From a virus, in the IMG/VR virus record IMGVR_UViG_3300042898_003056, positions 1-20,316 of that record: a stretch of 20,316 nucleotides of DNA; one strand, written 5' to 3'. The position numbers and the translations under genes are program-made. How positions within the stretch are numbered: position 1 is the first letter of the stretch; every line of letters begins with the position of its first letter. The notes beneath the pieces were generated by a model. It was not told where the DNA came from, did not search any database, and saw nothing but the letters and a program-made list of their open reading frames with translations. Below, in pieces: positions 3,953-17,834 of this stretch.

Positions 3953-4696
3953 TCATTGCCAGTGCATTGCTACCACAGGATCCGTGATACATTCATGCGG
4001 TTTGGGTTTTCCGTGAAATACTAAAATGCTGGTCTCGTCCCCTACTATGGTTGGTGTTCCAGGTTTTCGGGGTCGTCGGCGGGAAAAGTCATAACCACCT
4101 TCGCTGATTTGCCAACGCCAGCTTTGCAGTTGACTTTGTTCAAAGTTTCTGCGTTGATTGTGATCAATCACTGCACCGATGTAGTCTTGATCACCTTGAT
4201 ATCGCCGTACAGTTTGCTGGATGTCTAATTTCACAAAGTCCGCCCAGACATCAGCAAACTTGGTGACATTCCACCACATCACACTGCTGTTGATTCCTGA
4301 GTGAGTGGTTTTTTGTAGATATCTAAAATCTCGTATGGACCAAAAGTAATCAGTGCTGAGTTCGGGTATCCAACTAATGCCATTGATGATCACACAATCA
4401 AGATCAAAGTACAACAAATTGCCTGCATGATGTTCAGGATTGAACAACTGCATTTTGTACCACCACGACCGTTTGGGACCTGATATACCGGGCCATTCAC
4501 TCAAACAGTGTTTGATCATGTGTGACGGTACTGATCTGTGTTCTTCAGTATACACATGAAAACGTATGCCTTGGGGCATGTGTCGTGTCAACATGTTGTA
4601 CAGTTTGTCCACGTACTGCCAATCATATCCAGTGCCGTGGATTACACAAGCACAATCAATTATGCCGTCAATGCGGGCTCGATTCTTTTTAGCCAT
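3953..4696 (-). CDS. GT-A fold glycosyltransferase
   Basis: 247 residues. A putative metal-dependent sugar transferase: the strand YFDLDCVI carries the DxD motif at 98-100, which in GT-A enzymes binds the metal and nucleotide-sugar phosphates. A C-terminal VFHGKPKPHE segment (about 229-238) provides the His of the usual C-terminal metal or phosphate contact. WWYKMQLF (78-85) before the DxD is typical of phage and bacterial members of this type. The donor sugar and acceptor are not deducible. The start at 4696 is supported by GAAGGA seven bases upstream; the gene overlaps the end of the upstream GT-B-like gene by 37 bases. It is the last gene of the minus-strand sugar block before the small-gene cassettes. 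Confidence 0.85.
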   Translation of the reverse strand: MAKKNRARIDGIIDCACVIHGTGYDWQYVDKLYNMLTRHMPQGIRFHVYTEEHRSVPSHMIKHCLSEWPGISGPKRSWWYKMQLFNPEHHAGNLLYFDLDCVIINGISWIPELSTDYFWSIRDFRYLQKTTHSGINSSVMWWNVTKFADVWADFVKLDIQQTVRRYQGDQDYIGAVIDHNQRRNFEQSQLQSWRWQISEGGYDFSRRRPRKPGTPTIVGDETSILVFHGKPKPHECITDPVVAMHWQ

Positions 4697-5511
4697 AGTC
4701 CTTCTCGTAGTTCTTCAACAGTGTATTCAGTATGGCATATCTGCGCCAACCACAGTTCTCTATCCACTTCATAGGGTTGTTCAATGTCAGCATAGCCCAC
4801 AGCAACAGGATATGCCAGGCTGCTGTGTGATACAATGGGTCTGCAGCCTGCAATGCCTGCTTGGATGCCCGGTCCTGAATTGTGGTTAACCACAGCATGG
4901 CAATTGAAGTGCATGTCAAAACTGTCGTAGGTGTGTGCCACGGGTCTAGCCACTTCCATTGTGGTATTAGCAGGCATGTATGGCATGCGCAGTGGGCTTC
5001 GCGGATGTGATCGTATGCGTATGGGACGATCAGTTGAGTTGCGTAGTTGTTGAACTTGCATCAACACCCACAATTCCATGCTGTCTATGCCGGCAACTTG
5101 CAAACTGTTCCGGTGCTGTGCGGCAATGATGATTTCTGGTCGTGGATTGACTTGTGTGGCCAGGCTTATTTGCAATTGCCTGGGACGATCCCAGTTCAAA
5201 TCATGCTCATGTCCGTAATAGCCATCCCTGGTTATATGATTCACTGCCAGTTTCCAAGTGTGTCCACGATACAACGCACCAATATCTATCACAATAACTG
5301 GCCGGTTTTGACTTCGGTAATGCTCGTACACCGCTTGATTGGCTTGCATTCTACCATGCCACAGCACTGACCAAATCACTGCCGCATCAGCAGTCATTGA
5401 GTTCTCTTGTGTGATTATACCTGCGGCTTGGCAGCAGTCCAAGAATGCACTCATCACTGGTTTGCTGTTTAATGCACACTGAGCAGGAAAATAGGCTATG
5501 GTTTTGATCAC
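4660..5511 (-). CDS. GT-B/capsule-synthesis-like protein, paralogue A
   Basis: About 284 residues from a GTG start at 5511. Two-lobed architecture shared with three other genes in this window: an N-terminal lobe, a central RPIRIRSHPRSPL strand-loop, and a C-terminal lobe with NHNSGPGIQAGIAGCRPIV, followed by a Trp-Leu...Glu-Leu-Arg-x-Gly...Arg-Ile tail. This is the layout of capsule polysaccharide transfer proteins (KpsC/KpsS, CDP-glycerol transferase-like GT-B folds), where the Ser-Gly...Glu-Ala/Gly region binds the nucleotide of the donor. The frame is open further upstream but would overlap the divergent plus-strand gene. The conserved-looking KTIAYFPAQCALNSKPV N-terminus points to the GTG, with a later ATG at 5451 as an alternative. 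No clear ribosome site is visible. The start is uncertain. Confidence 0.75.
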   Translation of the reverse strand: MIKTIAYFPAQCALNSKPVMSAFLDCCQAAGIITQENSMTADAAVIWSVLWHGRMQANQAVYEHYRSQNRPVIVIDIGALYRGHTWKLAVNHITRDGYYGHEHDLNWDRPRQLQISLATQVNPRPEIIIAAQHRNSLQVAGIDSMELWVLMQVQQLRNSTDRPIRIRSHPRSPLRMPYMPANTTMEVARPVAHTYDSFDMHFNCHAVVNHNSGPGIQAGIAGCRPIVSHSSLAYPVAVGYADIEQPYEVDRELWLAQICHTEYTVEELREGLWLKRIEPALTA

Positions 5512-5524
5512 TGTAAATACGTCT

Positions 5525-6328
5525 ATGAAATACACTGTAGTTACCACGTTCAACGCCGACGGATACAATACATACGGTCGTCGCATGATTGATACCTTTT
5601 TGCAGACTTGGCCACAGCAGGTTGACTTAGTGGTGTACGCCGAAAATTGCACAGTGGATCAGTCTGCGACCAATTTGCAGATTCGTGACTTGGAACAGAG
5701 CAGCAGTGAATTGCAAGCATTCAAACAACAGTGGCGCGGTGTGCCCCGGGCCAATGGCGACATATCTGCTGACCCTGTGCGAAGCCGTAGAAGAGATGCT
5801 GCCAAACCATTCAAATGGGATGCGGTGCGTTTTGCTCACAAAGTGTACAGTATATTTCACTGTGCAAAGAATACCACAGCAGATGTGCTGATTTGGATGG
5901 ACGCAGACACCATTTGTCACAGTTCAATTACCATGCAAGACATACAACAGTTGATTCCCGCTGACAAAGACCTGTGCTTCCTTGGAAGAAAAGGAAAATT
6001 CAGCGAGTGCGGATTGTATGCAATGAATTTGCGTTCAGTGACTGTGCAGGATTTTCTAAAAAGATTTCAATGGATGTATGATGACGCAGAAAATGGAATT
6101 TTCCAACAGGATGAATGGCATGACAGTTTTATTTTTGATGTTGTTCGTCGACACGTTGTGTTGAAAGAACTTGACTGGAGCAGTCATTTGATCACAGGCG
6201 AAGGGCATCCATTGATTAATTCTGCATGGGGTGCATATTTGGACCATCTCAAAGGTTCACGTAAAAAAACTGGACGCAGTCCAACCACTGACTTGAAAGT
6301 CAAAAGAACCGAAGCATACTGGCAATGA
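5525..6328 (+). CDS. GT-A fold glycosyltransferase, first gene of the plus-strand block
   Basis: 267 residues from the ATG at 5525. The N-terminus MKYTVVTTFNADGY is the first GT-A strand, and VLIWMDADT carries the DxD motif at 126-128. A long basic segment (about 75-100) precedes it, as if binding an anionic acceptor. The C-terminal segment with GHPLINSAWGAYLDH and Lys/Arg clusters is probably acceptor-binding. An in-frame ATG at 5498 exists, but it would overlap the divergent gene and adds no conserved sequence. Only 13 bases separate this start from the divergent GTG at 5511, so the promoter must lie inside the neighbour. A TGTAAATA box five bases before the ATG resembles the T4 late element. 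The stop overlaps the next ATG as ATGA. Confidence 0.85.
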   Translation: MKYTVVTTFNADGYNTYGRRMIDTFLQTWPQQVDLVVYAENCTVDQSATNLQIRDLEQSSSELQAFKQQWRGVPRANGDISADPVRSRRRDAAKPFKWDAVRFAHKVYSIFHCAKNTTADVLIWMDADTICHSSITMQDIQQLIPADKDLCFLGRKGKFSECGLYAMNLRSVTVQDFLKRFQWMYDDAENGIFQQDEWHDSFIFDVVRRHVVLKELDWSSHLITGEGHPLINSAWGAYLDHLKGSRKKTGRSPTTDLKVKRTEAYWQ

Positions 6329-7134
6329 ACTGGATCTATCTCAGCAAAAATGGTGACGACGAGTACATTGATATGTACGCACAAGGTCTAGGTCAAGTCA
6401 GCACACCCTTGGAGTCTTGGCGCTATGAAGACAGTGCTGATCCCATCATGCTACGTGGCATAATGAAACACAAGATTATCAAACAGTGCTGGGCAGACAA
6501 CAGGCCATTTAGATACATGGACTCAGGATACTTGGGCAATCGCCCTGGTTATAAGAATCCTCATGGTTGGAAGGTATGGCATAGAATTGTGCCCAACAAC
6601 TTACAACATGATCAGGTGATTGCACGACCTAGTGACAGGTGGAATGGCCTGGGTCTTGAAATTTCACGCCGGCGACCAGGTAGTTCAATATTGATTGTTG
6701 CACCTGATGAAAAGCCTTGCAAGTTTTATGACATAGACTTAGACACATGGTTGGCAGAGACTGTGGCCAAGATCAAGCAATACACTGATCGCCCCATCAT
6801 CGTACGTGAACGTAATCGGAGCCGCACTGATAGAAAAAACAATCGTGTGGAACATGCCCTAACTCATGTACATGCCATGGTCACATTTAACTCAATTGCA
6901 GCCACAGAATCGGTGTTGGCCGGGGTGCCGGTGTTTGTGATGGCCCCATGCAATGCTGCACGACCCGTGGCCAATTTGGATCTGGCTGGTATAGACAATC
7001 CTTGGTGGCCGGAACAGGATCAAATACAAGCCTGGGCCAATCACTTGGCTTATGGACAATTTCACATTGACGAATTCCGAAACGGCACAGCCGAACGTAT
7101 AATTAAACAAACTGAGGAGATATTAAATGATTGA
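6325..7134 (+). CDS. GT-B/capsule-synthesis-like protein, paralogue B
   Basis: 269 residues, clearly homologous to the protein at 11156-12154. Shared landmarks are MLRGIMKHK near residue 43, a (Y/F)xYxDxGYxGN strand around 63-71, the HRIVPNN and RPSDRW segments, FYDIDLDTWL, TDRPIIVRERNRSR, TFNSIAATESVLAGVP and a closing WANHLAYGQF...FRNGTAERI. The pattern fits a GT-B or KpsC-like capsule transferase fold, with the Ser-Ile-Ala...Glu motif in the donor site. The substrate is unknown. It is coupled to the preceding glycosyltransferase by ATGA (6325-6328) and overlaps the FkbM gene by eight bases, so the three are co-translated. Confidence 0.78.
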   Translation: MNWIYLSKNGDDEYIDMYAQGLGQVSTPLESWRYEDSADPIMLRGIMKHKIIKQCWADNRPFRYMDSGYLGNRPGYKNPHGWKVWHRIVPNNLQHDQVIARPSDRWNGLGLEISRRRPGSSILIVAPDEKPCKFYDIDLDTWLAETVAKIKQYTDRPIIVRERNRSRTDRKNNRVEHALTHVHAMVTFNSIAATESVLAGVPVFVMAPCNAARPVANLDLAGIDNPWWPEQDQIQAWANHLAYGQFHIDEFRNGTAERIIKQTEEILND

Positions 7135-7777
7135 GCATTATGGATGGAAATTCCCGGACTTTGAAACACACCTTCCGCGAATGTTGAAGAAAAGTGTGGA
7201 CAAAGGTCTTCCGGCCGAATATCAAGTTGCTGTGCGTCGCCGAAGTATTGAACTGTGTAAAAATCGAGACCTAGCCCTGGACATTGGTGCCAATGTGGGC
7301 TTGTGGAGTCGTGACTTTGTTGGCAGTTTTTCTCGTGTGATAGCATTTGAACCAGTGGCCTTGTTTAGAGAATGCTTGGAACACAATGTGCAAGGCAAGA
7401 ACTTTGAAGTTCAACCAATTGCCCTTGGTGATCAAGACACACAAGGCACCATGATCATCACTGAGGACAATTCTGGTCACAGCCACCTAGATCCTGCCAC
7501 CATGGGCACAGGCAATGTACAAGTTGTTCGGTTGGATACACTGAATTTCGATGATGTCAGTTATATAAAAATTGATTGCGAAGGCTACGAGTATCGCATC
7601 TTGCAAGGCGCTGAACAAACTATTCGTCGTTGTAGACCAGTGGTGGTAATAGAACAAAAACCACATGATGCGTACAGCAAGCAATACGGACAGTTTGCGG
7701 CAGTGGCGCTGTTGCAAGAATGGGGCATGATCAAACTAGATCAAGTACGTGACGACTGGATCATGGGATGGCAATGA
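7127..7777 (+). CDS. FkbM family SAM-dependent methyltransferase
   Basis: 216 residues. A class I methyltransferase of the FkbM type, which commonly O-methylates sugars or polyketides. Motif I is LDIGANVGLWS (51-61), followed by an acidic post-strand II loop AFEPVA (73-78) and the FkbM-typical IKIDCEGYE around 147-155. The length is normal for the family. It overlaps the previous gene by eight bases and the following 17-codon micro-ORF by ATGA, so it is in the middle of a tightly coupled sugar operon. The methyl acceptor is probably a sugar hydroxyl made by the neighbouring transferases (inference). Confidence 0.9.
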   Translation: MIEHYGWKFPDFETHLPRMLKKSVDKGLPAEYQVAVRRRSIELCKNRDLALDIGANVGLWSRDFVGSFSRVIAFEPVALFRECLEHNVQGKNFEVQPIALGDQDTQGTMIITEDNSGHSHLDPATMGTGNVQVVRLDTLNFDDVSYIKIDCEGYEYRILQGAEQTIRRCRPVVVIEQKPHDAYSKQYGQFAAVALLQEWGMIKLDQVRDDWIMGWQ

Positions 7778-7827
7778 GCACTCACCAGTCCGATAAGTAT
7801 GAATTTGTAGAAGCGATTTACCGATGA
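7774..7827 (+). CDS. 17-residue coupled micro-ORF or gene remnant
   Basis: An 18-codon frame (ATG at 7774, TGA at 7825-7827) encodes MSTHQSDKYEFVEAIYR. It overlaps the FkbM stop by ATGA on one side and the GT25 ATG by ATGA on the other, so it spans the entire space between the two genes. It could be a translational relay that keeps ribosomes moving, the N-terminal stub of a deleted gene, or a chance frame. The exact overlap at both ends makes pure chance less likely, but no expression evidence exists. Confidence 0.4.
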   Translation: MSTHQSDKYEFVEAIYR

Positions 7828-8576
7828 AGTCATATATCATTACCATGCTGGGGCATGAATTGTCAGAACAGCTATCAGCTGAGTGCAGAGAACAAGCAGC
7901 CCGAGTTGGAGTCAACGTAGAAATATTTCAAGCCATATGGGGTCGAGACTATGAACAACACTTGAAAAAACTCAACATCAGACTGGGCAAACAAAAACTC
8001 AGCAAAATGACCTTGGGGCATTATGGTAATTTTTTAAGCCATTTTTATCTATGGATGCAGTGTGTGCGAGATCAAGTGCCGTATCTTGTGCTTGAACATG
8101 ATGGTTGGCTCATGCGAGAAATTCCTAGCAACATCATGAGTCAATTTGATGACATTTGTAAATTAGATTGTTTTAGCCCTTGGATGAAACAAGATGGCGG
8201 ATATGATGTTGTGGTAGATAAGGATCAGACATCACCTGTATCAGTCTATTCAATTCTTGACATTCCAGCAGTGACTGGATACCCTGATCCACTGCGATTT
8301 AAAAAACAAGCTGGATGCTACAGTTCAGGTGTGTATGCTTACATCATCAAACCACGAGGGGCAAAAAAGTTAATTGATTATATTAGAGAAAACGGATTCT
8401 TGGCCACAGACAATCAAGTCAACACCAATGTTATGGATGTAAAGGTGTGTATACCATCAGTGGCCAGGTTACATCCAGTAATGAAAAGTCGTGAGATTAT
8501 TGGGCAGATGTCAACTTCAAGACAGAGCCCAAATCCACACACAGGAAAAGGTATGGAAAATGCAGAACAAAAATAA
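7824..8576 (+). CDS. GT25 family glycosyltransferase
   Basis: 250 residues. It starts with a strand MKSYIITMLGHELS and has LGHYGNFLSHFYLW (64-77), then YLVLEHDGWL with the Glu-x-Asp metal motif at 91-93. These are the signatures of the family-25 transferases that add galactose or related sugars to lipopolysaccharide. The second half carries GCYSSGVYAYIIKPRGAKKLI, also characteristic, and ends in a short polar Ser/Pro/His tail. In bacteria the enzyme works at the inner face of the cytoplasmic membrane on lipid-linked core oligosaccharide. Here it is preceded by the coupled micro-ORF and overlaps the start of the radical SAM gene by 17 bases. The family is confident; the sugar and acceptor are not known. 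Confidence 0.88.
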   Translation: MKSYIITMLGHELSEQLSAECREQAARVGVNVEIFQAIWGRDYEQHLKKLNIRLGKQKLSKMTLGHYGNFLSHFYLWMQCVRDQVPYLVLEHDGWLMREIPSNIMSQFDDICKLDCFSPWMKQDGGYDVVVDKDQTSPVSVYSILDIPAVTGYPDPLRFKKQAGCYSSGVYAYIIKPRGAKKLIDYIRENGFLATDNQVNTNVMDVKVCIPSVARLHPVMKSREIIGQMSTSRQSPNPHTGKGMENAEQK

Positions 8577-9663
8577 ACACATCGCACTGACACAAAAATT
8601 CAGCACCTGGGGTGACAAATTGTTGCAACACACTGATGTATTGTACAGTATTCAACATGACAAAAAGTTCCGACCCATCACAATACAACTGTCACCGTGC
8701 GAAGTTTGCAGCAGTGGTTGCCCATTTTGTAGTGTGGCTGAACGACCACTGAAATCATACTTGCCATTTGAAAAAATCAAACAGGTTTTGCGTGACTTTC
8801 GAACACTGGGTGCAAAGAGTGTGGAGATCACCGGTGGTGGCGAACCCTTGATCTATCGTGACAAGGACACCCGGGACGACATCAACAGCATAGTCGAGTA
8901 TGCACATGAACTGGGCTACGACATTGGCATCATCACCAACACATTAAAACTGTCAAAACTAAAACCAGAGAACTATCACAAGATCAATTGGATCAGAGTT
9001 AGTTTGATCAAACTAGATGAAGGTTATGAACCAGAGGATTTTGATTTCTGTGGGTTTCCTCCTGAGAAAATGGGCTTGTCATACATCATATATGAAGGCG
9101 ATACAGGTACAGGCAACAGATTAGGCAAACCCTATCGGCCCACAGATGTTGAAACAATCCGACGAATTGCACGAGTGTTGGAACTGCACCCTGAGCTGAA
9201 ATTTGTCAGAATAGCAGGCAACTGCTTGATCAAAGGCAACAACGCACAAATCAGAACACAATTCAAACAAGTGATTGATGAGATCGACACCATGAACAAA
9301 ATTTTTATCAAGGACATTGGCGAAGACGATTCACCATTTGAGGATGGATGCTATGTGGGCATGATCCGCCCATACGTGGCACCGGATCCACATGGCACTG
9401 GAAAATATCAAGTGTACATTTGTACCAGTCATGTGTTGAACAAGCAAAACTACGACTTGGATTATTCATTGTGTGATGTGGACAACATCATTCCCACATG
9501 GCAACAACTCAGTGACAACTATGCTGCCAAAGGATATCCATACGAAGTAAAAAACAACTGTGGACAAGACTGGACTGCAAGTTGCAAGTACTGCTACTAT
9601 AAATTCAACAACAAAATTTTACACACTGTGGCACAACAAATGCCAGATCGGAACTTTCCATGA
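8560..9663 (+). CDS. Radical SAM enzyme 3, with C-terminal cysteine cluster
   Basis: 367 residues from the ATG at 8560. The frame is open upstream to 8491, but that would overlap the GT25 gene deeply, and AAAAGG lies just before 8560. The iron-sulfur motif is Cys-x3-Cys-x2-Cys at 50-54-57, with an extra Cys 47 in front, followed by the SAM-binding ITGGGEPL (about 90-97). The C-terminus has Cys 334, Cys 342 and Cys 345, followed by a Tyr-Tyr pair, suggesting an auxiliary cluster as in SPASM/twitch-type enzymes. Substrate class is unknown; in the setting of sugar transferases and methyltransferases, sugar dehydration, epimerisation or peptide modification are all possible. The stop overlaps the downstream methyltransferase ATG as ATGA. 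Confidence 0.88.
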   Translation: MQNKNKHIALTQKFSTWGDKLLQHTDVLYSIQHDKKFRPITIQLSPCEVCSSGCPFCSVAERPLKSYLPFEKIKQVLRDFRTLGAKSVEITGGGEPLIYRDKDTRDDINSIVEYAHELGYDIGIITNTLKLSKLKPENYHKINWIRVSLIKLDEGYEPEDFDFCGFPPEKMGLSYIIYEGDTGTGNRLGKPYRPTDVETIRRIARVLELHPELKFVRIAGNCLIKGNNAQIRTQFKQVIDEIDTMNKIFIKDIGEDDSPFEDGCYVGMIRPYVAPDPHGTGKYQVYICTSHVLNKQNYDLDYSLCDVDNIIPTWQQLSDNYAAKGYPYEVKNNCGQDWTASCKYCYYKFNNKILHTVAQQMPDRNFP

Positions 9664-10244
9664 CCCAGGTGTTTGATGAACAGTACTATCGTTCCAACAA
9701 CTATGTGGACTATCTCTCCAAACGCGAACGGTATGTAAAAACAGCTGAAGAAATACAACAAGTGTTTCATAAGTTCAGTGTGATCGATCAGGATTCAACC
9801 ATCTTGGATTATGGATGTAGTCTGGGCTTCTTGATCAAAGGATTTGAAAAAGCTGGATTCAAAAATGTATTTGGTTATGACGTATCAGACTGGGCTGTGG
9901 AGCAGGCAAGAAACAATGGATGCCGCATACTGGCACATGCTCAAGGCACATTTGATTTGGGCATATTTTTAGATGTGCTTGAGCACATGTCTGATCAACA
10001 AATTGCTGAATTATTTTCTGGACTCAAACTTGATAAAGTTTTGGTTAGAATACCATGTGCTGTTGCTGAACAACCTGATCGATTTCATCTAGAAGTATCA
10101 CGTCGTGACGTCACACATATCAATTGCAAAACAGATCAAGACTGGATAGAAGTGTTCAAGAGCCTGGGGTACCGCAACTGTTTTCGTCTCAACATGTCTA
10201 CCATATACGATTCGCCAGGATGCTTTTGTTGCTTGTTTATTTGA
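9660..10244 (+). CDS. Class I SAM-dependent methyltransferase (type 11-like)
   Basis: 194 residues. The N-terminal YYRSNNYVDYLSKRERYV is typical of sugar and cell-surface-associated methyltransferases. Motif I is ILDYGCSLGFLIKGF (48-62), the adenosine-binding acidic strand is GYDVSD (72-77), and IFLDVLEHM (102-110) is the motif IV/V-like strand with the usual Leu-Glu-His. The C-terminal third is shorter than the family average, with a Cys-rich end (CFCCLFI). It is the last gene of the plus-strand block. Its stop lies inside the convergent minus-strand gene's end (eight-base overlap), and no terminator is visible between them. Confidence 0.85.
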   Translation: MTQVFDEQYYRSNNYVDYLSKRERYVKTAEEIQQVFHKFSVIDQDSTILDYGCSLGFLIKGFEKAGFKNVFGYDVSDWAVEQARNNGCRILAHAQGTFDLGIFLDVLEHMSDQQIAELFSGLKLDKVLVRIPCAVAEQPDRFHLEVSRRDVTHINCKTDQDWIEVFKSLGYRNCFRLNMSTIYDSPGCFCCLFI

Positions 10245-11163
10245 GATAAGGCAAGAATTTTTGATAGATACGACCTGCCTGTGCATCTGCATCGCTCCAG
10301 TGTGCTGATGCTAAATCATATATCCATTGTTCTCTAGAAAATGTTTCTGGTGACTCAATTTTAGAAATATCTTTGTTGGCCACTGCCCAGGCCACACAAC
10401 TCGAATCATCTGCGAATATTGGTATACCTTCACACACTGCTGCCACGCTGGCACTGCTGTTGAAAAATACTGCTGCATGAGCACCTTGCAAATTGTCTAT
10501 TAATTGACTGTGCGTGGGCTCAAGTATGGTAACATGGTGTTTGATTTGTTTTTTGTCAGTCCAGTGTTGGAAATCTTTCATGTCGTACTGCCCTGGGTGC
10601 GGTCTAACCCAGATAGGACGGGCAGTAATTGATCTTATCTGTTGTATTTTTTCATTCAACCAAGTCATGGGATCCAGAGTTTTCATGGCAAACCCACCGT
10701 CACGTTGCATACAAATTAAAATGTGTCCTTCAGTATTACCTTGGGCTGGTTTCAACTGTACCCCTAGTGTGCGACTGATTTCTGACCATTTTGAGACATC
10801 ACTGTTGTGGTTGGCATATTCAGCATGATCATAAAATGGTCCATTGAGACTGTAACGCAAATAACTGCCGTGATTGTCAAGATACTTCCAACATGACGCA
10901 TCTATGCACATGGTCTGAAATCCCAATCTACGTTGTTCGGCAATGACTTGTTTGCGCAGTGTAATGTTGCGACCACCTGTGTTTGTGGTGGCCCAGCCTA
11001 GTATCACAGCCAAGCGGCTGGGAATGTATCGGTGTTCCCATTCTGTAACAACAGAGTGTCCTACTGCACGTACACCTTGGGCAAAACTTTCTAAACACTC
11101 AATTTTTCTTGTGTGTTTGCGAGTGTTGGCCACACTGCTGACATAAACTACTACATCAACCAC
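10237..11163 (-). CDS. GT-B/capsule-synthesis-like protein, paralogue C
   Basis: About 308 residues from a GTG at 11163. Same architecture as the paralogues at 4660, 6325 and 11156: an N-terminal lobe with Arg/Lys-rich helices, a central ARPIWVRPHPGQYDMKDF strand and loop with the His-Pro pair typical of capsule and polysialic-type transferases, then FFNSSASVAAVCEGIPIF as the donor-site loop, and a Trp-Ile-Tyr...Ile tail. It is the most diverged of the four at the C-terminus. The open frame extends to 11256, but a GGAG 11 bases before the GTG and the strand-like VVDVVVYVSSV favour this start; an ATG at 11190 is the alternative. It overlaps the upstream paralogue by eight bases. The substrate is unknown. 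Confidence 0.72.
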   Translation of the reverse strand: MVDVVVYVSSVANTRKHTRKIECLESFAQGVRAVGHSVVTEWEHRYIPSRLAVILGWATTNTGGRNITLRKQVIAEQRRLGFQTMCIDASCWKYLDNHGSYLRYSLNGPFYDHAEYANHNSDVSKWSEISRTLGVQLKPAQGNTEGHILICMQRDGGFAMKTLDPMTWLNEKIQQIRSITARPIWVRPHPGQYDMKDFQHWTDKKQIKHHVTILEPTHSQLIDNLQGAHAAVFFNSSASVAAVCEGIPIFADDSSCVAWAVANKDISKIESPETFSREQWIYDLASAHWSDADAQAGRIYQKFLPYLK

Positions 11164-12154
11164 CTTGCAATATTCTCCATGCTGTGCCATCACGCAGTTC
11201 TGTTTCAGTGAATTGACAATAAGCCATGTGGTTTGCCCAGACTCTAATTTCGTCAAGACTGGGTATTTTGAGTTTTTCTATTTCTGGAATGATAGTACTG
11301 CACAGCGAGGCAGCAGCGTTGGGACCAAGTGTGATGGCAGGTTTACCATGCAATATGGCCTCACCGGCTGCAATGCTGGAATAAGTTATCAAGCAATATA
11401 TGTCTTGGTCCAAGGCCATTTCTATAGTATCTGTGTTGACTCTGGCACTGCGCCCTTGTTTGCGGCGTATCACTACTTCACGGTCAGTATGGGCATGAAT
11501 ATCGGCTAAAGTTTGATCCAACCAAGTTTCAAGATTGATGTCATACAAATTCAGCAATTTCTGACTGGGTGGCGCCAACAAAATTTTACTACCTGTTGCA
11601 CGGACTTTGCTGAGTTGAATTCCTGTGCGTTCAAATCTATCTCCAGGACGTTCAATCACTGGTCCAAAATTTTGTACATCATTTTTTGTAATTCTGTGAT
11701 AGAGTTTTTTCTTACCGTTGCCAAAGTATCCTGTGTCAATATAATAAAAGTCTTTGCCTCGAGCACGACAAGCATTCATTTCTTTGCGTTTGGTAATTCC
11801 TCGCAACACTATTGGGGTAGGTGTTGTTTCTGTTTTGTTCCAGGTGGTTATCTGTCCACCACATCCACGCACAAAACTTTCTAGTATAGGATCGTACATA
11901 TAACCTTTTCTTTCGTATCTGTATTCGCTGTCAATGGCGTGAACAGCTGATGTGTCTAATGCGCGAATCTTTTCAGTCAACGCAGCCAAACTCATGCCAT
12001 AATAGTCACCTGCTGGGTCCACTCGATATTTTACAATGTCATAAACTATATTTTGAATTTCCGGCAATAGCAAATCAAATTCATGTGGTGGGGGTGGTGC
12101 TGGTGGTGCTGGTGGTGCTGGTGGTGTTCTGTCCTCTTGTTCCCATTCATTCAT
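11156..12154 (-). CDS. GT-B/capsule-synthesis-like protein, paralogue D, with Pro-Ala linker
   Basis: 332 residues, the longest member of the four-gene family. An N-terminal acidic stretch, then a PPAPPAPPAPPPPH linker (about 11-24), then an extra helical domain to about residue 110 that paralogue B lacks. From VLRGITKRKE onward it aligns by eye with paralogue B: FYYIDTGYFGN, YHRITKND, ERPGDRF, LYDINLETWLD, TDREVVIRRKQGRSAR, ITYSSIAAGEAILHGKP, and WANHMAYCQFTETELRDGTAWRI. It is probably a sugar or sugar-phosphate transferase. It sits one base after the GT8 stop and overlaps paralogue C by eight bases. The linker is coded by a tandem DNA repeat and could vary in length. Confidence 0.8.
   Translation of the reverse strand: MNEWEQEDRTPPAPPAPPAPPPPHEFDLLLPEIQNIVYDIVKYRVDPAGDYYGMSLAALTEKIRALDTSAVHAIDSEYRYERKGYMYDPILESFVRGCGGQITTWNKTETTPTPIVLRGITKRKEMNACRARGKDFYYIDTGYFGNGKKKLYHRITKNDVQNFGPVIERPGDRFERTGIQLSKVRATGSKILLAPPSQKLLNLYDINLETWLDQTLADIHAHTDREVVIRRKQGRSARVNTDTIEMALDQDIYCLITYSSIAAGEAILHGKPAITLGPNAAASLCSTIIPEIEKLKIPSLDEIRVWANHMAYCQFTETELRDGTAWRILQGG
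12093..12128. repeat. Nine-base tandem repeat coding a Pro-Pro-Ala linker
   Basis: Plus-strand GGTGGTGCT occurs three times perfectly (12093-12119), followed by a one-mismatch copy (12120-12128). Because the unit is nine bases, gain or loss of units keeps the frame of the minus-strand gene. Confidence 0.9.
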
Positions 12155-12155
12155 G

Positions 12156-12839
12156 TTATATTCTTTGCTGACAATAGTCGGTTAATAATCTTTCTTTGTG
12201 CCACTCTTCTGCAAAGTCTCCAGCATCAGCAAACTCATGAAAGCAAGGAGTACCTAGTGTGTAATGCACCAGTTTTGCCTCAGGATTAGCATCATATTCA
12301 ACGTCCAGCCAGTTCCACTCTGGGGGCAGTTCACCAATTCTAGCATCTTCTATCCAAGAGAATCTATGCAGTTCAGCGCCGGTTGATTTTTGCACAAACT
12401 CGGGTGTTAGTTTGCGATTGGGAAAACTGTTGCAGTTCCACAGTATCACACTTGACCAGTTCTTTCTTGGATAGTCTTCGTTCTTGCTGCCAAGATACTT
12501 TTCAGCCATGCGTGTTCGATAGTCATGTTTGACAACCATAATGTCTTTGGTAAGGTCTTGCAGGTCCCACAGTTCTACAATGTCACCACGCAGGATCATG
12601 TCGCCGTCAATGAATATAGCCCAGCCCCGGTAGTCCATCAAGTGTGGCACAAGGAAACGACTGTAGATAAATTGATTGCTACCGTCGGTATGTGTTTCAT
12701 CGTAGTCTTTGAATAGATTCAATGCCACAGGAATGATAGCCACTGGCTGACTGGCATGCCTGATGATTGAGTTCACACACACATGATATGCAATGGCTTC
12801 TCTGGGGTCGTAGCCCACAAACACAGGAATTGGTTTCAT
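12156..12839 (-). CDS. GT8-type glycosyltransferase
   Basis: 227 residues beginning MKPIPVFVGYDPREAIAYHV, a pattern of family-8-like enzymes that read as the first nucleotide-sugar strand followed by a helix. AIFIDGDMIL places the DxD motif at 78-80. SVILWNC and an NWLD strand follow, and LVHYTLGTPCFHEF near the C-terminus carries the His-x-x-Leu-Gly-Thr-Pro substrate and metal loop. It is shorter than bacterial LgtC-type members and close to the small phage type. It overlaps the upstream fusion gene by ATGA and ends one base before the next start. The donor is likely a UDP- or GDP-sugar (family knowledge). Confidence 0.87.
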   Translation of the reverse strand: MKPIPVFVGYDPREAIAYHVCVNSIIRHASQPVAIIPVALNLFKDYDETHTDGSNQFIYSRFLVPHLMDYRGWAIFIDGDMILRGDIVELWDLQDLTKDIMVVKHDYRTRMAEKYLGSKNEDYPRKNWSSVILWNCNSFPNRKLTPEFVQKSTGAELHRFSWIEDARIGELPPEWNWLDVEYDANPEAKLVHYTLGTPCFHEFADAGDFAEEWHKERLLTDYCQQRI

Positions 12840-13603
12840 TTTTTACGTTCTATGTCTTCTTCAACACAGCGATCGCCATATTGTATCTCAATCAACTTCA
12901 AGGGTTGATCGGTTTCATTACACAGCTGATGCCATTCATTCACACGGATAAATGTATGTTCGTGCATGACAAGACTGCACTTGACTTCTTGATCTGTTGA
13001 TGCCTCATCCAGGGTATACACTGTGGCTTCGCCCTCGGCCACAAACCAAAACTCAGCACGACTGTCATGACGTTGCATGCTCAAACATGTTTTGGGCATT
13101 ACAGTGAGTTCTTTGAGCTTGGTATTGGCACCTACTTCGTGCAACACACGATAGTACCCCCAGGCACGATCAGTCTTGGGGGTTTTCCATTCTGTTAGTA
13201 TCCACGAACTTGAGTTCATTTTGTGCTCGCCGCCCACACCAAAGCGGAAGTCCACATCATCAAAAACCATTTCTGGAATGTTGTCGGCTGTGCGATCACC
13301 ACCATTGGCAAAGATAAACCGTGCTCTGGGCATGGTATAGTATGTACGGGCAACACGTATGGCTTCTATGGCAGTGTCATCATCATCATTGAATTCGATC
13401 ACACGGTCTACCATGCGTAAGTTTTCAATGATGGCTCGTCGTTCTGCTGCAGGCATAAATGGTCTACCTTTTTTGCGGGTGAGCCACTCATCACTGTTGA
13501 TGCCAACCACAAGCCTATCGCCTAGTGCGCGGGCTGCCTCAAAGTAGGCAATGTGCCCAGAATGTAGCGGGTCAAACCCGCCTGTGACAATTACGATTTT
13601 CAT
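12836..13603 (-). CDS. Fusion: cytidylyltransferase-like domain plus mannose-phosphate-isomerase-type cupin
   Basis: 255 residues with two domains. Residues 1 to about 140 form a nucleotidyltransferase of the RfaE/HldE C-domain or glycerol-phosphate cytidylyltransferase type: TGGFDPLHSGHI (HxGH at 14-17), GRPFMPAAERRAIIENLRMVDRVIEF (47-71 region) and ANGGDRTADNIPE (99-111). Residues 160 to about 252 read as a cupin like the C-terminal domain of type II mannose-6-phosphate isomerase/ManC: LSMQRHDSRAEFWFVAEGEATV (174-195 region, metal-type His and Glu) and FIRVNEWHQLCNE with LIEIQYG. Predicted role: activation of a sugar phosphate as NDP-sugar, with the cupin possibly isomerising or binding it. 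The HldE-like half suggests heptose chemistry, but this is inference. A TATAAATA box is six bases before the start. Confidence 0.85.
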   Translation of the reverse strand: MKIVIVTGGFDPLHSGHIAYFEAARALGDRLVVGINSDEWLTRKKGRPFMPAAERRAIIENLRMVDRVIEFNDDDDTAIEAIRVARTYYTMPRARFIFANGGDRTADNIPEMVFDDVDFRFGVGGEHKMNSSSWILTEWKTPKTDRAWGYYRVLHEVGANTKLKELTVMPKTCLSMQRHDSRAEFWFVAEGEATVYTLDEASTDQEVKCSLVMHEHTFIRVNEWHQLCNETDQPLKLIEIQYGDRCVEEDIERKK

Positions 13604-13609
13604 GCGGGT

Positions 13610-13617
13610 ATTTATAG
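13610..13617 (-). promoter_or_regulatory. T4 late-promoter-like TATAAATA box
   Basis: A perfect TATAAATA on the minus strand (13617-13610) ends six bases before the ATG of the nucleotidyltransferase-cupin gene. It lies in the 25-base gap between that gene and the upstream methyltransferase. This is the T4 late consensus, but the spacing would give an almost leaderless mRNA. Chance cannot be excluded. Confidence 0.45.
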
Positions 13618-13628
13618 ACGCAGATAAC

Positions 13629-14258
13629 TCAGACCAGCTTTATTTCAACTGTGCTGCGTTTTTTACTATAAGCTGATACCACATCTACTATTTCAAATCC
13701 GTCTACACCCACATAATTGCCCACTGTACCTTTGGTGCGTACATCCAATATAATACGTGTATTTTCGTGCAAATGTCGACGCATGAGATCTATATAAGTT
13801 TTTACAGGGTAGTGATGTCCACAACTGAGCCATGATGTTATCACGTCAAATTTCACATGTTCGGGTATGTTGATGTTGTTGGCATTGATCAAATGATAAT
13901 TTTTTGTGCCAAGTTCTTGAAGTTTTGCATCCAAAAAATCAAAACTGTGATAAAAGTACAAAGCATCAGCAGTTGTGTTCCAATTACCATAAGACGCTGA
14001 TTCTGGCTTGCTGTCATTTTGTTGTTGGTCACCATCCAGCAACCATAACTCTGTGCCGTACTTTTCCGCAAACCAACGAGATTCCCAGGCAAAACCACAT
14101 CCTATGTCCAACAATTTGCCAATGGGTTGAGACAAGTATGCATCAACTGTTTCAAAGTTTTCTCGTCGCTTGGCAATGTATTCTGGTTTTGTCCATTTTA
14201 CTGCCCAGGCGGCAGAATCATCATCACCTTTTTTTGGATTGTCTATGTATGAGTTCAT
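13629..14258 (-). CDS. Class I SAM-dependent methyltransferase
   Basis: 209 residues from the ATG at 14258. KLLDIGCGFAWESRWFAEKYG (48-68 region) is motif I, LWLLDGD (71-77) is the acidic strand II, and ITSWLSCGHHYPV is the post-IV loop; the last strands are short. The frame is open for fifteen further codons to a TTG. The ATG is preferred because it overlaps the stop of the upstream 40-residue gene as ATGA. The extra N-terminus PKKGDDDSAAWAVKWTKPEY suggests a specific partner or acceptor. Acceptor is unknown; a sugar or lipid-linked glycan is likely from context (inference). Confidence 0.82.
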   Translation of the reverse strand: MNSYIDNPKKGDDDSAAWAVKWTKPEYIAKRRENFETVDAYLSQPIGKLLDIGCGFAWESRWFAEKYGTELWLLDGDQQQNDSKPESASYGNWNTTADALYFYHSFDFLDAKLQELGTKNYHLINANNINIPEHVKFDVITSWLSCGHHYPVKTYIDLMRRHLHENTRIILDVRTKGTVGNYVGVDGFEIVDVVSAYSKKRSTVEIKLV

Positions 14259-14378: not shown

Positions 14379-14831
14379 TTAAACTGTGATATCTTCCATG
14401 CCTGCTGTGCGCAAGCGAACCACGTGACCCATTTGCCATTGTTTGGTGTCCAAGCCCTTCATGATGCCCAACCAACGGTTGCGTAGCAGTGCCACTTCAT
14501 TAATAATGGTTTCAAAGTCCACGACTTCTTCTTCACCATCCACATACTTTTCAGCATCACGTGCTGTCAAGGCACGGGCATAGCCTTCAAGATACTTCTT
14601 GAAATGTCGAGTACGAATTTTGCGCAGTTGAATGTTGAGAAAATTCAGCACAGCTTCAATCTCTTGTAGCTGGTTGAATCTATGTTCGGTGATACCTGGC
14701 AGGGCAGTGATGTTCTTTTCTACCAGGCCACCAATTTTGCAGTCCCGCTTGGCTTCAAGTAACTCTGATTCAAAGTGTGCAATAAAATCAGGTATGTTAC
14801 CAAGATCGGCAACTACTCGACTATACCACAT
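14379..14831 (-). CDS. uvsY: UvsY recombination mediator
   Basis: 150 residues. UvsY loads UvsX on gp32-coated single-stranded DNA in T4-type recombination. The signature is in the C-terminal half: HFKKYLEGYARALTARDAEK (about 77-96), then KYVDGEEEVVDF, NEVALLRNRWLGIMKGLD and QWQMGHVVRLRTAGMED. The acidic EEE with following hydrophobics and the Leu-Leu-Arg-Asn-Arg segment fit the UvsY hexamer helix. Length is close to T4 UvsY (137). It starts on the last base of the upstream stop (TGATG). Its position next to uvsX and the acidic gene is a T4-like recombination operon. Confidence 0.9.
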   Translation of the reverse strand: MWYSRVVADLGNIPDFIAHFESELLEAKRDCKIGGLVEKNITALPGITEHRFNQLQEIEAVLNFLNIQLRKIRTRHFKKYLEGYARALTARDAEKYVDGEEEVVDFETIINEVALLRNRWLGIMKGLDTKQWQMGHVVRLRTAGMEDITV

Positions 14832-15096: not shown

Positions 15097-16152
15097 TTAT
15101 TCCTCCGTTGCGTCGGCTGTACTTACCTCTGTCTTGATGTTCTTGAAGTCTGTCATGACTTTGTCCAGGCACCCATCTTCGTTTGCTTCCCAGGCCTTGC
15201 GGAATTGTTTAATTATTTCGCCTTCACTAGTGACAAATACTAGACGATTGCCTTCTTTCTTGAGCATGCCCTTTTTCTCTGCAAGATCAGTCAATCCACT
15301 GTAGGGATTCATACCTGTTTCGTAGGGAATTTTAACCTGCATGCCTTCAAATGGTTTGGCATAACGAGTTTTCATCACTTTACAACCAGCACGTATGCCC
15401 ATGACTTCGGAGATCTTGTTGCCATCCTCGTCCTCTTTCAGCTTCATTTTCTTCATGGCCACAACAATACTTGACGCATAGATAAAGCCTTGGCCACCTG
15501 AGATCTTGTCATCTGGATCAAACATGTCTTGACTTGCGTATGTATGATTGGTACAAACCATTCCCACATTAAAACCACCAAACATGTTGACTGAATTACG
15601 AACCAATGATGTAAGTGCCTTGGGCTTGCGACCCATGTCACCTTTCATGTCTCCTGCTTCAAATTGATTCACATCAGTTGGTGTCAACAACATACCCAAT
15701 GAGTCAATAACCCATAACACCTTCATACGTTCACCGTCTGGCAACGCTTTGTAGTCAATCATGAATGTTGAAATGGCCTTGGCCACATCATCAATCATGC
15801 TCATGTTCAGTTTGAGCAACTTATCTGCGCCTGTGTCCACACCCAATGCATGCAGCCATGTCTCATCCAGTGCGTTTTCTGTATCAACCAAGATAACAAA
15901 AATACCTTGCTCTTGTGCGTTCTTCACAATGTTGCCACTACAGATATAACTCTTGCCTGCACCCGATTCGCCGGCAAACACTGTGATCTTGCCCAATGGA
16001 ATGCCTCGATTGAAATCCCCGCTGATGAGATAGTTCAAGGCAAAGTTGCCTGTTGAAATCCAATCTGTTGGATCATTGAATCCAATGCTCAGACCTTCGA
16101 TACTTTTGGTAATATCCTTGCGGAACTTGCTTACGTCAAATGGTTTTCCCAT
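15097..16152 (-). CDS. uvsX: UvsX RecA-like recombinase
   Basis: 351 residues. ATP-dependent strand-exchange recombinase that forms filaments on single-stranded DNA. Walker A GESGAGKS at 61-68, the following VILVDTENALDE, Walker B VLWVIDSLGMLL (about 144-155), the L1-like QFEAGDMKGDMGRKPKAL segment, TNHTYASQDMFDPDDKISGGQG (L2 region, about 201-222) and the conserved VMKTRYAKPFEG. A flexible acidic C-terminus closes the protein. Ribosome site AAGGAAG lies shortly before the ATG. It overlaps the upstream radical SAM gene by 17 bases, so an accessory gene is translationally joined to an essential recombination gene. Assignment is firm. Confidence 0.95.
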   Translation of the reverse strand: MGKPFDVSKFRKDITKSIEGLSIGFNDPTDWISTGNFALNYLISGDFNRGIPLGKITVFAGESGAGKSYICSGNIVKNAQEQGIFVILVDTENALDETWLHALGVDTGADKLLKLNMSMIDDVAKAISTFMIDYKALPDGERMKVLWVIDSLGMLLTPTDVNQFEAGDMKGDMGRKPKALTSLVRNSVNMFGGFNVGMVCTNHTYASQDMFDPDDKISGGQGFIYASSIVVAMKKMKLKEDEDGNKISEVMGIRAGCKVMKTRYAKPFEGMQVKIPYETGMNPYSGLTDLAEKKGMLKKEGNRLVFVTSEGEIIKQFRKAWEANEDGCLDKVMTDFKNIKTEVSTADATEE

Positions 16153-17293
16153 GTTTTTCTTCCTTGTATAAATCTTTAAAAATTACTCTGCTGTCTAATT
16201 TACGCCGCTGATCCATGTCTGCTATTTTTTCAAAAGACCCTGCTAGATCTTTGTCAAACGGTTGATCCAAATGACTCAACATGTTCTGATAACCGTTTTC
16301 TAACAAATACCCTGGCTGGTCAGCAATACGGTCAGACAAAATCTTCTTCACTGAGTTTAACACATCTTTAGACAAGTGTCTAATGTTTAGGTACGATGGT
16401 CCCAATAATGCACCGATTACAAAACTGTTGTTGTGAAATCCTTGATTGGACAAATAATCCACACAGTCAAAAATACTTTTATAATTCAATAAAAAATGCA
16501 ACATGTTGAATGATATCTTGTGGTTCAATTTTTTGATAATCTGTAAATTATCCACAAAGTCTTTCCAAACTCCACCATGTCGTATGTATTCAAATTCTTG
16601 TTCCATGCTCTCTACACTCACCGTCCAGTGGACATTTTTGAATTCGCAAACCAAATCAAACATGCGAGTATCCACACGACTTAAATTTGTGTTTATTCGC
16701 AAGTTGACGTTGGGGTTGATCTGTTTTAGTATTTCTAAAAATTCCAAGTTTTCCTTCATCAACAGCGGCTCACCGCCTGCTAGATACACATGTTTGAGTT
16801 GTGCCGCACGTTCAAAAATATATTGTTTGAATTCTTCACGTTTTTGATCTGACGGTGTGTGTATGGTCAAGTTGCGTTCACTGGCCCACTTACTGCTAAA
16901 TTCTGGTGAGCAATACACGCAGGCAAAATTACAGAGATTACTCCAACGTATGTCCACAGTGTGCAATGCAAAGTTGGAGGTATCATACAATGTATTGTCT
17001 ACATTGCGCAGTTCTTTGAGATAGAACACACGATCACTGATTATATCAAACTTGTTTTTTTCTTGTTCTAAATCATAACAAGGATTGCATCTAGCAAACT
17101 TTTGTCCTGCTCTCATGTCTGCTTTGATCATGAGATCATTGCTGAGTATTTCTTCAATGGGGTTGTTGTTGATATTGCCAATGGGCTCGGCACTGCGTAT
17201 GCAATTTTTTACTGAGCCATCAAAGTTGTACATGATACTGGTCCACGGCACAGGACAAAATGCACGATTGGTCAAATATTCTTTACTGTCCAT
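16136..17293 (-). CDS. Radical SAM enzyme 2, with N-terminal twitch/SPASM-like cysteines
   Basis: 385 residues. An N-terminal cysteine domain comes first: Cys 13 in FCPVPWTSI, Cys 31 after NFDGSVKN, and Cys 69 and Cys 72 in ARCNPCYDLE. This arrangement is that of SPASM/twitch auxiliary iron-sulfur domains. The radical SAM core follows: DIRWSNLCNFACVYCSPEF with Cys-x3-Cys-x2-Cys at 121-125-128, VYLAGGEPLLM, then LRINTNLSR and VHWTVSVES (core beta strands). Such twitch-domain radical SAM genes have been seen in aquatic T4-like phages; a substrate is not known to me. It overlaps the SDR stop by 11 bases and uvsX by 17 bases, and is co-oriented with both. Confidence 0.88.
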   Translation of the reverse strand: MDSKEYLTNRAFCPVPWTSIMYNFDGSVKNCIRSAEPIGNINNNPIEEILSNDLMIKADMRAGQKFARCNPCYDLEQEKNKFDIISDRVFYLKELRNVDNTLYDTSNFALHTVDIRWSNLCNFACVYCSPEFSSKWASERNLTIHTPSDQKREEFKQYIFERAAQLKHVYLAGGEPLLMKENLEFLEILKQINPNVNLRINTNLSRVDTRMFDLVCEFKNVHWTVSVESMEQEFEYIRHGGVWKDFVDNLQIIKKLNHKISFNMLHFLLNYKSIFDCVDYLSNQGFHNNSFVIGALLGPSYLNIRHLSKDVLNSVKKILSDRIADQPGYLLENGYQNMLSHLDQPFDKDLAGSFEKIADMDQRRKLDSRVIFKDLYKEEKHGKTI

Positions 17294-17834
17294 AGTTCAC
17301 GCCCAACGACAATTCAGTCACATCCAATTCTGGTCTGGCTGCATCTAAAATACGTACAACGGTTTGAGCCCAATTGTCAACGTTGGCATATGGCATGGGA
17401 CTGAGTTGTCCTAGCTGTGTGGCCACAGCTCCTGGTCTTATCAATACCAGTTTTGGCCAATCTTGTAAATGCTGTAATTGACGATGTGCTTCTTCTAGGG
17501 CAATTTTTTGATTTCTATATGCAATCATATCTATGCCTGGCAATGAACTAACTGGGTTGGTTGCCATCATGGTACTGATGTTTATGATACATTTGCCCTG
17601 TTGTGACTTCCACAGACGATACATTTCAAACAACAACTCAGTCTGTGCAAAGCCAGCTTGTGCGTTGTTGACAAACATGTCGCAAGGCTCAATGTGTGTT
17701 GTTATTTTGGGAATATTTCGAATGTTGTACCCATTGCGTCTGCTAAGACCAACAATTTCATGCCCTTGTGATTGATATACTCGAGACAATGCTTGTCCAA
17801 TGCCTGCTGTGTGTCCAGTTATGGCTATTTTCAT
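17283..17834 (-). CDS. Short-chain dehydrogenase/reductase (SDR)
   Basis: 183 residues from the ATG at 17834. A Rossmann NAD(P)-binding enzyme: TGHTAGIG (6-13, the TGxxxGIG cofactor motif), FVNNAQAG (NNA at 56-58), Ser 87 in NISTMM, and the Tyr-x3-Lys pair YRNQK (106-110). IRPGAVATQL after it is the usual C-terminal cofactor strand. It is short but all catalytic elements are present, so it is likely active, reducing or oxidising a hydroxyl or keto group. The open frame extends upstream, but ATGA overlap with the preceding gene (17831-17834) fixes this start. Sitting between two radical SAM genes, it may act on the same compound: radical SAM chemistry creates a keto group that SDR reduces, or the reverse (inference). 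Confidence 0.87.
   Translation of the reverse strand: MKIAITGHTAGIGQALSRVYQSQGHEIVGLSRRNGYNIRNIPKITTHIEPCDMFVNNAQAGFAQTELLFEMYRLWKSQQGKCIINISTMMATNPVSSLPGIDMIAYRNQKIALEEAHRQLQHLQDWPKLVLIRPGAVATQLGQLSPMPYANVDNWAQTVVRILDAARPELDVTELSLGVNYGQ

Follow-up and report, generated by a model that had tools for sequence, protein, structure and literature searches.

A predicted glycan-building and methylating gene island between uvsY and uvsW of a probable jumbo phage, with late-type motifs at the heads of two operons

One account describes clusters of sugar genes in cyanophages, as well as smaller sets carried by other jumbo phages, and interprets them as modifying the host surface (PMC7824862). For the lipopolysaccharide (LPS) clusters of the phages P-SSM2 and S-SSM7, the use is given as unknown in two further papers (PMC3037559, PMC2984593). 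For the Xanthomonas jumbo phage XacN1, two glycosyltransferases (GTs) are reported, and proteomics detected at least two glycoproteins (PMC5852040). Moraphages, whose predicted hosts are mostly Bacteroidota, have four core GTs (PMC12619734; the term UvsX does not occur in that text). Here, we present an analysis of the complete IMG/VR virus record IMGVR_UViG_3300042898_003056, a stretch of 20,316 bases hereafter called the window, which carries an island of 13 genes between uvsY and uvsW. The island comprises eight GT-like genes (four GT-A-like and four GT-B-like), a nucleotidyltransferase-cupin fusion, three methyltransferases including one of the FkbM family, and a radical S-adenosylmethionine (SAM) enzyme, and we regard it as a predicted sugar-building and methylating block in a probable jumbo bacterial virus. 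The assignment to a jumbo clade is itself probable, since jumbo phages give the best UvsX matches and the records of the relatives reach up to 340 kb. With confidence somewhat short of even, we propose that the island is a soluble, modular and probably late glycan assembly that would glycosylate virion proteins in this clade.

The T4-like cyanophage LPS/capsule clusters (P-SSM2, S-SSM7) resemble the island in having several GTs, nucleotidyltransferases, cupins and methyltransferases and in their variable content. Paralogous GTs and the HIGH-superfamily nucleotidyltransferase and sugar cupin of P-SSM2-type clusters are matched here, the latter two by g16, and an S-SSM7 protein is 52% identical to the N-terminal half of g16. 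The NAD-dependent epimerase/dehydratase of P-SSM2-type clusters has no match in the window's island but is present in some relatives' islands, and a short-chain dehydrogenase (g22) lies in a separate gene set. Cyanophage clusters reside near hli03/phoH, whereas the island occupies a fixed site between uvsY and uvsW in many relatives, and it differs further in its quartet of KpsC-like GTs and in a late-type motif at two operon heads. XacN1 is alike as a jumbo phage with GTs and differs in that only two are reported. Pelagibacter phage Mosig EXVC030M (L084) has g07-, g15- (47%), g08-, g14- and g05-like genes in one run, which also includes two FkbM-like genes and an annotated sulfotransferase, but it is a Kyanoviridae phage and its cassette lies near ribonucleotide reductase genes. 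PMC8163748, consulted as the isolation paper of Mosig, contains neither that name nor the string 'glycosyl'. In the Caulobacter jumbo phage CcrColossus (gp126-gp131), adjacent g14- and g15-like GTs (gp128 and gp129), with a g14-like fold, form part of one GT run close behind the tail-protein gene gp125, which we count in favour of virion glycosylation; this run differs in its location beside tail genes, and identity is 24-31%. No published account of the present island was found in the open-access literature searched. Clusters of this kind are known, but that literature yielded no counterpart of the fixed site, of the Kdo-transferase-like quartet (Kdo, 3-deoxy-D-manno-octulosonic acid), of the swapping of modules at one locus or of the late-type wiring.

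The timing of the island is suggested by a late-promoter-like heptamer. TAAATA[CT] occurs at only two sites in the window, both strands counted, each 11 nt upstream of the ATG of g07 or g16. Upstream sequences were surveyed in 161 sequences (the window and 160 relatives), where matches had to start within the first 15 residues at an identity of at least 38% and upstreams were counted as distinct below 85% identity. At 10-12 nt, the motif was found in 28 of 37 distinct upstreams of g16 and 7 of 19 of g07, jointly 35/56, and within 40 nt it was found in none of 276 upstreams of gp32, uvsX, g19, uvsY, the AAA ATPase gene and uvsW. The Fisher p of 5e-33 for this close-spacing contrast treats related sequences as independent (deduplication at 85%), and its direction alone counts. 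Within 150 nt, the motif precedes uvsX in 1/92, uvsY in 1/85, AAA in 1/21, g19 in 0/60 and uvsW in 0/14 cases, and g06 has it within 40 nt in 6/27 upstreams, several of them palindromic and none at 10-12 nt. The close-set motif marks the island heads, and the recombination genes may carry a remoter copy before gp32. A spacing of 11 nt would leave almost no leader, which suggests leaderless or nearly leaderless late messages.

A 340-kb relative (G016) provides the genomic context for this motif. There, the octamer TAAATACA is 10.6-fold over-represented upstream of open reading frames (ORFs; 15 vs 1.4), and of 49 TAAATAC sites, 26 are close to a start, compared with 8.3% for random places. TAAATA[CT] peaks at 10-12 nt (14 cases) and 25-32 nt (15 cases) before ATG, where the expectation is about 0.3 and 1.0 per permuted 7-mer, which doubles to about 0.6 and 2 because the motif covers two 7-mers. 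Ten genes behind the motif, hand-picked by eye as long or structural-looking ORFs from the 26 TAAATAC sites near starts and hence a biased choice, include a portal (E 3e-109), an endolysin, a gp55-type late sigma factor (phrog_12791, E 3e-73), a head decoration protein, two virion-structural matches, a weak tail-fibre match and two genes without assigned function, in addition to one that is taken up below. The motif also stands upstream of g16, g15 and one g05-like gene in the island of G016. The T4-type late promoter regulon is similar in its TAAATA-type motif close upstream and in the gp55-type sigma factor, whose gene was found in G016; in the window, which is a fragment, none was seen. Because the close-set motif heads both the operons of the island and virion genes of G016, the island is probably transcribed late, as far as expression can be predicted from a motif.

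A synteny search had been proposed in the preliminary description of this DNA, and the gene set does recur at its site. At least 80 UvsX-seeded loci were examined; among the matches listed, two or more island families are present in 31 of the 40 with at least 2.5 kb beyond uvsY, and the remaining nine have one island family (five loci) or none (four). Ten UvsX-seeded loci span uvsY to AAA/uvsW, and of these four hold at least three island families and six fall short, one with g16 alone. In the GT8-seeded loci, which contain an island gene by selection, the island is present in 23 of 23 loci that span the site, at a length of 8.7-12.4 kb. Some relatives are without it: Vibrio phage 2.275.O and Sinorhizobium phage Phosso, with UvsX 65-66% identical, have no island at the site. 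A contig binned as Neomarinimicrobiota (L189) that carries gp32, uvsX, uvsY and uvsW has a diverged island copy in the same place. Between relatives, the orientation of the island and its middle genes differ, and the genes swapped in include GDP-mannose 4,6-dehydratase, Polysacc_synt_2, RmlD-type, SAM synthetase, cupin and extra methyltransferase genes, as well as a pyruvyltransferase-like gene in some islands (match below cut-off). Beside this variation, three loci (L044, L045, L061; a cluster of three, with Pfam run on the L061 copy) have a SAM synthetase gene adjoining uvsY near methyltransferase-rich islands, and two others (L033, L034) have, beyond uvsY, other genes (judged by eye as ParB-like, of 331 aa, and as HNH-like) where the island starts in other loci.

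All 13 island genes are under purifying selection, with a median omega of 0.024-0.107 (0.024 for g11) from 2 to 69 comparisons per gene, some with synonymous divergence near saturation. Median protein identity is low for g06 (42%), g08 (40%) and g10 (41%), values that partly include paralogues, and high for g15 (87%) and g11 (96%), with uvsX (86%) and uvsY (85%) for reference. The island genes co-occur across many contigs, and because the same genes recur jointly under such selection, their grouping exceeds chance. Whether the sugar clusters of large phages are functional or filler was given as not known in a 2010 genome paper, which raised filler as a possibility for cyanophage LPS clusters (PMC3037559). 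That the present genes are non-functional filler for headful packaging is hardly credible in view of median omega values of 0.02-0.11 in all 13 genes and the conserved position of the motif. Selection and motif position argue instead that the cluster is used, and probably late, which would place the particle among the likely acceptors.

The preliminary description had listed the genes and delimited the island from sequence, and the list proved right gene for gene, with family matches as in Table 1, and the coordinates exact, from the end of g05 (3953) to the best start of g17 (14258). From gene spacing, we deduce two operons: A runs on the minus strand from 13603 to 10237 (g16-g15-g14-g13, preceded by g17), and B covers 5525 to 10244 on the plus strand (g07-g08-g09-g10-g11-g12). 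The remaining pair, g06-g05, also lies on the minus strand (5511 to 3953) and diverges from operon B. Comparison with relatives indicates that g06 probably starts at GTG 5511 (283 aa) rather than at ATG 5586. Pfam, NCBIfam and PDB searches gave no GT match for g05, and NCBIfam and PDB searches gave no match for g07, in which both Asp residues of the DAD motif are invariant in a 13-sequence alignment. A comparison of g16 with TIGR02199 gave E 1e-21, below cut-off. From uvsY to the uvsW end, the window holds the island, g01, an AAA ATPase gene and two small genes; the uvsW-like protein is a 51% match to an annotated 'DNA helicase' of phage Phosso. The gene g01 (1009-1866), without family match, neighbours uvsW in several relatives as well.

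Table 1. Positions of the island genes, late-type motifs, boundary markers and the second gene set in the window.
Feature	Position	Strand	Evidence or remark
uvsW-like helicase, boundary marker	2..1012	-	open ORF at contig end; name from the preliminary description
g05, GT-A-like glycosyltransferase, DLD motif	3953..4696	-	phrog_1962 glycosyltransferase E 1e-21; orthologues in relatives
g06, GT-B/KpsC-like glycosyltransferase, HP motif retained	4660..5511	-	paralogue of g13, g08, g14
late-promoter-like TAAATAC	5514..5520	+	11 nt before g07 ATG, head of operon g07-g12
g07, GT2-like glycosyltransferase, DAD motif	5525..6328	+	Pfam Glycos_transf_2 E 5e-4, below curated cut-off
g08, GT-B/KpsC-like, HP motif replaced	6325..7134	+	DUF6716 putative glycosyltransferase E 0.0025, below cut-off
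g09, FkbM-family methyltransferase	7127..7777	+	PF05050 E 1e-19; TIGR01444 E 4e-27, above cut-off
g10, GT25-type glycosyltransferase	7824..8576	+	PF01755 Glyco_transf_25 E 1.4e-13, above cut-off
g11, radical SAM enzyme	8560..9663	+	PF04055 E 1.4e-9; PDB MoaA E 7e-5; CX3CX2C present
g12, SAM-dependent methyltransferase	9660..10244	+	PF13489 E 1e-9
g13, GT-B/KpsC-like, HP motif retained	10237..11190	-	paralogy by BLASTP, motifs
g14, GT-B/KpsC-like, HP motif replaced	11156..12154	-	AlphaFold2 model pLDDT 89.6
g15, GT8-type glycosyltransferase	12156..12839	-	PF01501 Glyco_transf_8 E 3e-6, above cut-off
g16, nucleotidyltransferase (RfaE2/TagD-like) fused to phosphomannose isomerase (PMI)-type cupin	12836..13603	-	PF01467 E 1e-15, PF01050 E 2e-20
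late-promoter-like TAAATAC	13608..13614	-	11 nt before g16 ATG, head of operon g16-g13
g17, SAM-dependent methyltransferase	13629..14258	-	PF13489 E 2e-6, above cut-off
uvsY, boundary marker	14379..14831	-	phrog_231 UvsY-like E 9e-13
second set	16136..19415		sulfotransferase-like g24; twitch radical SAM g23, g21; short-chain dehydrogenase g22

The GT-B-like proteins g06, g08, g13 and g14 gave no Pfam family above cut-off, but they are paralogous, as five of the six pairs match by BLASTP. The pair g08/g14 shares 39% identity (E 3e-53), the other matching pairs reach E 1e-3 to 3e-10, and g13/g14 is the only pair without a direct match. A structure search, which had been suggested as a check, was run on an AlphaFold2 model of g14 (51-sequence alignment, pTM 0.78); in Foldseek, KpsC came out on top (E 1e-5) and the first 12 matches were KpsC, WbbB and KrkA, though at low TM-scores of about 0.3-0.5. 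In VIA-align, the top 12 rows were all KpsC/WbbB (Z 10.4-12.3, next row 9.2), with KpsC at Z 12.3 over 229 residues and a root-mean-square deviation of 4.7, and identity over the KpsC/WbbB rows was only 12-14%. The g14 family profile matched the WbbB sequence at E 0.0025 across the HP and NS/SS motifs. Both motifs are carried by g06 and g13; the HP motif is also retained in their listed relatives and is lost from g08 and g14 of the window. The nearest named relatives of g14 among viral models are phage proteins, including CcrColossus K4JVV7, and capsule-type proteins of Tetraselmis virus 1. In the Kdo transferases KpsC and WbbB, which we take to be families GT107/GT99, the catalytic Asp nucleophile is D160 and D232, respectively. 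The modelled fold of g14 resembles these Kdo transferases, with other GT-B families possible too, and activity is predicted only; a CMP-sugar donor for the quartet is a guess from the model. The g14 protein (gene 11156-12154) also has a proline/alanine-rich N-terminus (PPAPPAPPAPPPP) ahead of the GT domain.

According to the preliminary description, the island encodes a full pathway. The recurrence at one site, the swapped sugar-nucleotide modules, purifying selection and the Kdo-transferase-like fold give good support to a unit that builds and methylates a glycan, but completeness was not borne out: g16 is the one sugar-activating enzyme in the window's island, and family searches there detected neither a sugar-nucleotide dehydratase nor an epimerase or kinase. 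Because some relatives' islands carry dehydratase, Polysacc_synt_2 or RmlD-type genes while the window has this single activating enzyme, donors are probably drawn in part from the host. In the mechanism that we propose, nucleotide sugars activated by g16 or taken from the host would be consumed by the eight GTs, of which the four Kdo-transferase-like ones may take CMP-activated acidic sugars, and the resulting oligosaccharide would be methylated by FkbM and the two other methyltransferases and further altered by the radical SAM enzyme. The RfaE2-like domain of g16 and the Kdo-transferase-like GTs suggest that the glycan contains LPS-core-like sugars (heptose, Kdo-like). The acceptor would most likely be one or more co-synthesised virion proteins (fibre, capsid decoration or tail), which soluble enzymes made late would meet as nearby acceptors in the cytoplasm, ahead of particle assembly. 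Swapping of modules could make the glycan strain-specific in the manner of O-antigen serotypes, and the proposed benefit would be evasion of binding proteins or neutralisation, a more stable particle or a change in adsorption. The gene content, the recurrence at one site, the selection, the placement of the late-type motif and the lack of large membrane proteins are observed, and late transcription, donor identity, acceptor, order of steps and benefit are all inferred. A more far-reaching version, in which a clade-wide, swappable O-antigen-like locus under late promoters yields a strain-specific methylated Kdo-like virion coat, phage 'serotypes' and a chlorovirus-like self-encoded system, is rather unlikely in our judgement. 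Should the virion glycosylation proposed above be right, phages would carry variable sugar coats on their particles, with consequences for adsorption, neutralisation and ecology.

A close rival of virion glycosylation, possible even if we doubt it, is that the island remodels the host envelope (LPS or lipooligosaccharide core, or capsule), which would exclude rival phages or prevent progeny from sticking to debris. Cyanophage sugar clusters are interpreted in this way in print (PMC7824862, PMC2984593), and LPS/capsule synthesis typically involves KpsC/WbbB-like transferases, GT25, GT8 and an RfaE2-like domain. Relatives of g16 are also chromosomal: among the best 80 of 517 bacterial relatives, full-length g16-like nucleotidyltransferase-cupin fusions occur in many SAR86 and SAR11/Pelagibacteraceae genomes (L183-L262), mostly at 44-52% identity. 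Judged by eye, their neighbours are polA-like and major facilitator superfamily-like genes in 23 loci and, in some SAR86, UDP-sugar-type genes, which is not decisive; among the same 80, other island genes lie nearby only in the phage-like L189, plus a weak g12 match in L259. However, the late-type motif suits particle assembly better than early exclusion, with late receptor masking possible, and no flippase, polymerase, lipid-carrier transferase or other large membrane protein was found with a crude hydropathy cut-off among 346 ORFs of the stretch between uvsY and uvsW, which argues against Wzx/Wzy/lipid-carrier machinery. These ORFs come from the first 80 UvsX-seeded loci, island-free ones included, and the window copy (L001, four ORFs outside the island). 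Five ORFs passed the cut-off, of which two (L006 and L037, 73-74 aa) probably have membrane helices and three resemble soluble enzymes or a spurious ORF. De novo synthesis of a capsule or O-antigen polymer was set aside on the same ground. The preliminary description had named host envelope and own fibres as alternatives; the late-type motif and the missing large membrane proteins lean to the particle, and the question is not settled.

Several observations weigh against a late, virion-directed role. The window's two TAAATA[CT] sites are fewer than the shuffle mean of 4.57, so their position, rather than their number, is what is notable. At 10-12 nt the motif is missing from 9/37 g16 and 12/19 g07 upstreams, and it lies 43-140 nt before gp32 in 21/45 distinct upstreams (e.g. 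G016 243795); gp32, the head of the recombination genes, may also have a late promoter from which replication genes are read. The genes uvsX, g19 and uvsY are downstream genes and hence weak controls. In G016, one of the ten genes behind the motif resembles DNA methyltransferases, and the motif is likewise found before a radical SAM gene and further non-virion ORFs. One ATAAATA is present in the S-SSM7 sugar cluster. In the Mosig cassette, TAAATA[CT] is missing at this spacing, with one TAAATAG 16 nt before the sulfotransferase gene, and in the CcrColossus stretch no TAAATA lies on the strand that carries the GT genes. Other, earlier promoters may be present in the island as well, and late timing leaves the acceptor unnamed. 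The TM-score of g14 against KpsC is only about 0.4-0.5. LPS-core transferases are also soluble, so the missing membrane proteins rule out polymer export only. The capsids of chloroviruses have a self-encoded glycosylation system and the virions of mycobacteriophages are glycosylated, with virus-borne GTs acting on virion protein, whereas glycosylation of the virion is here predicted from genes. The island, finally, sits amid replication genes.

The location amid uvsX, uvsY and uvsW is also what would favour modification of phage DNA bases by the GTs, like the T4 alpha/beta-glucosyltransferases or hypermodifying viral GTs, a role that we consider quite improbable. Pyle 2024 reportedly describes viral DNA-modifying GTs with diverse glycans. 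DNA glucosylation tops the possible roles listed for moraphage GTs (PMC12619734). However, PF00303 (thymidylate synthase/dCMP hydroxymethylase) was absent in 27 of 27 records, including the 340-kb and 212-kb ones, in a search whose control match appeared in 9 of 14 control genomes and in which many of the 27 records are fragments. To our knowledge, GT8, GT25 and KpsC-like folds do not act as DNA GTs. A Tet/JBP search of 24 records gave no match, but the controls were silent too, which makes it unusable. The radical SAM enzyme and the methyltransferases would fit a secreted or intracellular glycosylated small molecule instead of a glycoconjugate, and a metabolite was proposed for a second cyanophage cluster (PMC7824862); with an island content of mainly GTs and no polyketide synthase, nonribosomal peptide synthetase or exporter among the island family matches (short peptide precursors were not searched for), this is very improbable.

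Outside the island, a second set of genes (g24, g23, g22, g21) lies between gp32 and uvsX (Table 1), and at least three of the four are present in 19 of 103 loci having gp32 and uvsX. In the 161 sequences, TAAATA[CT] was found within 40 nt in 0/67 upstreams of this set and within 150 nt in none. The g24 protein of the window gave no Pfam or NCBIfam match, but it contains KNGSSSL and RNPRxRYVSG, presumably motifs that bind 3'-phosphoadenosine-5'-phosphosulfate (PAPS), and the first 27 rows of its structure comparison are sulfotransferase-family chains, among which we count retinol dehydratase, with Z only up to 5.5. NF033640 matches g21 above and g23 below cut-off. Between g19 and uvsY, relatives (L007, L010, L013, L020, L041 and others) often have a further radical SAM gene, with about 22-28% identity to g21/g23. 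In G016 (L166-L182), 12 places are related to the g21/g23 radical SAM genes, five of them consecutive at 139.5-146.4 kb, and in one case the late-type motif stands 10 nt upstream of the ATG.

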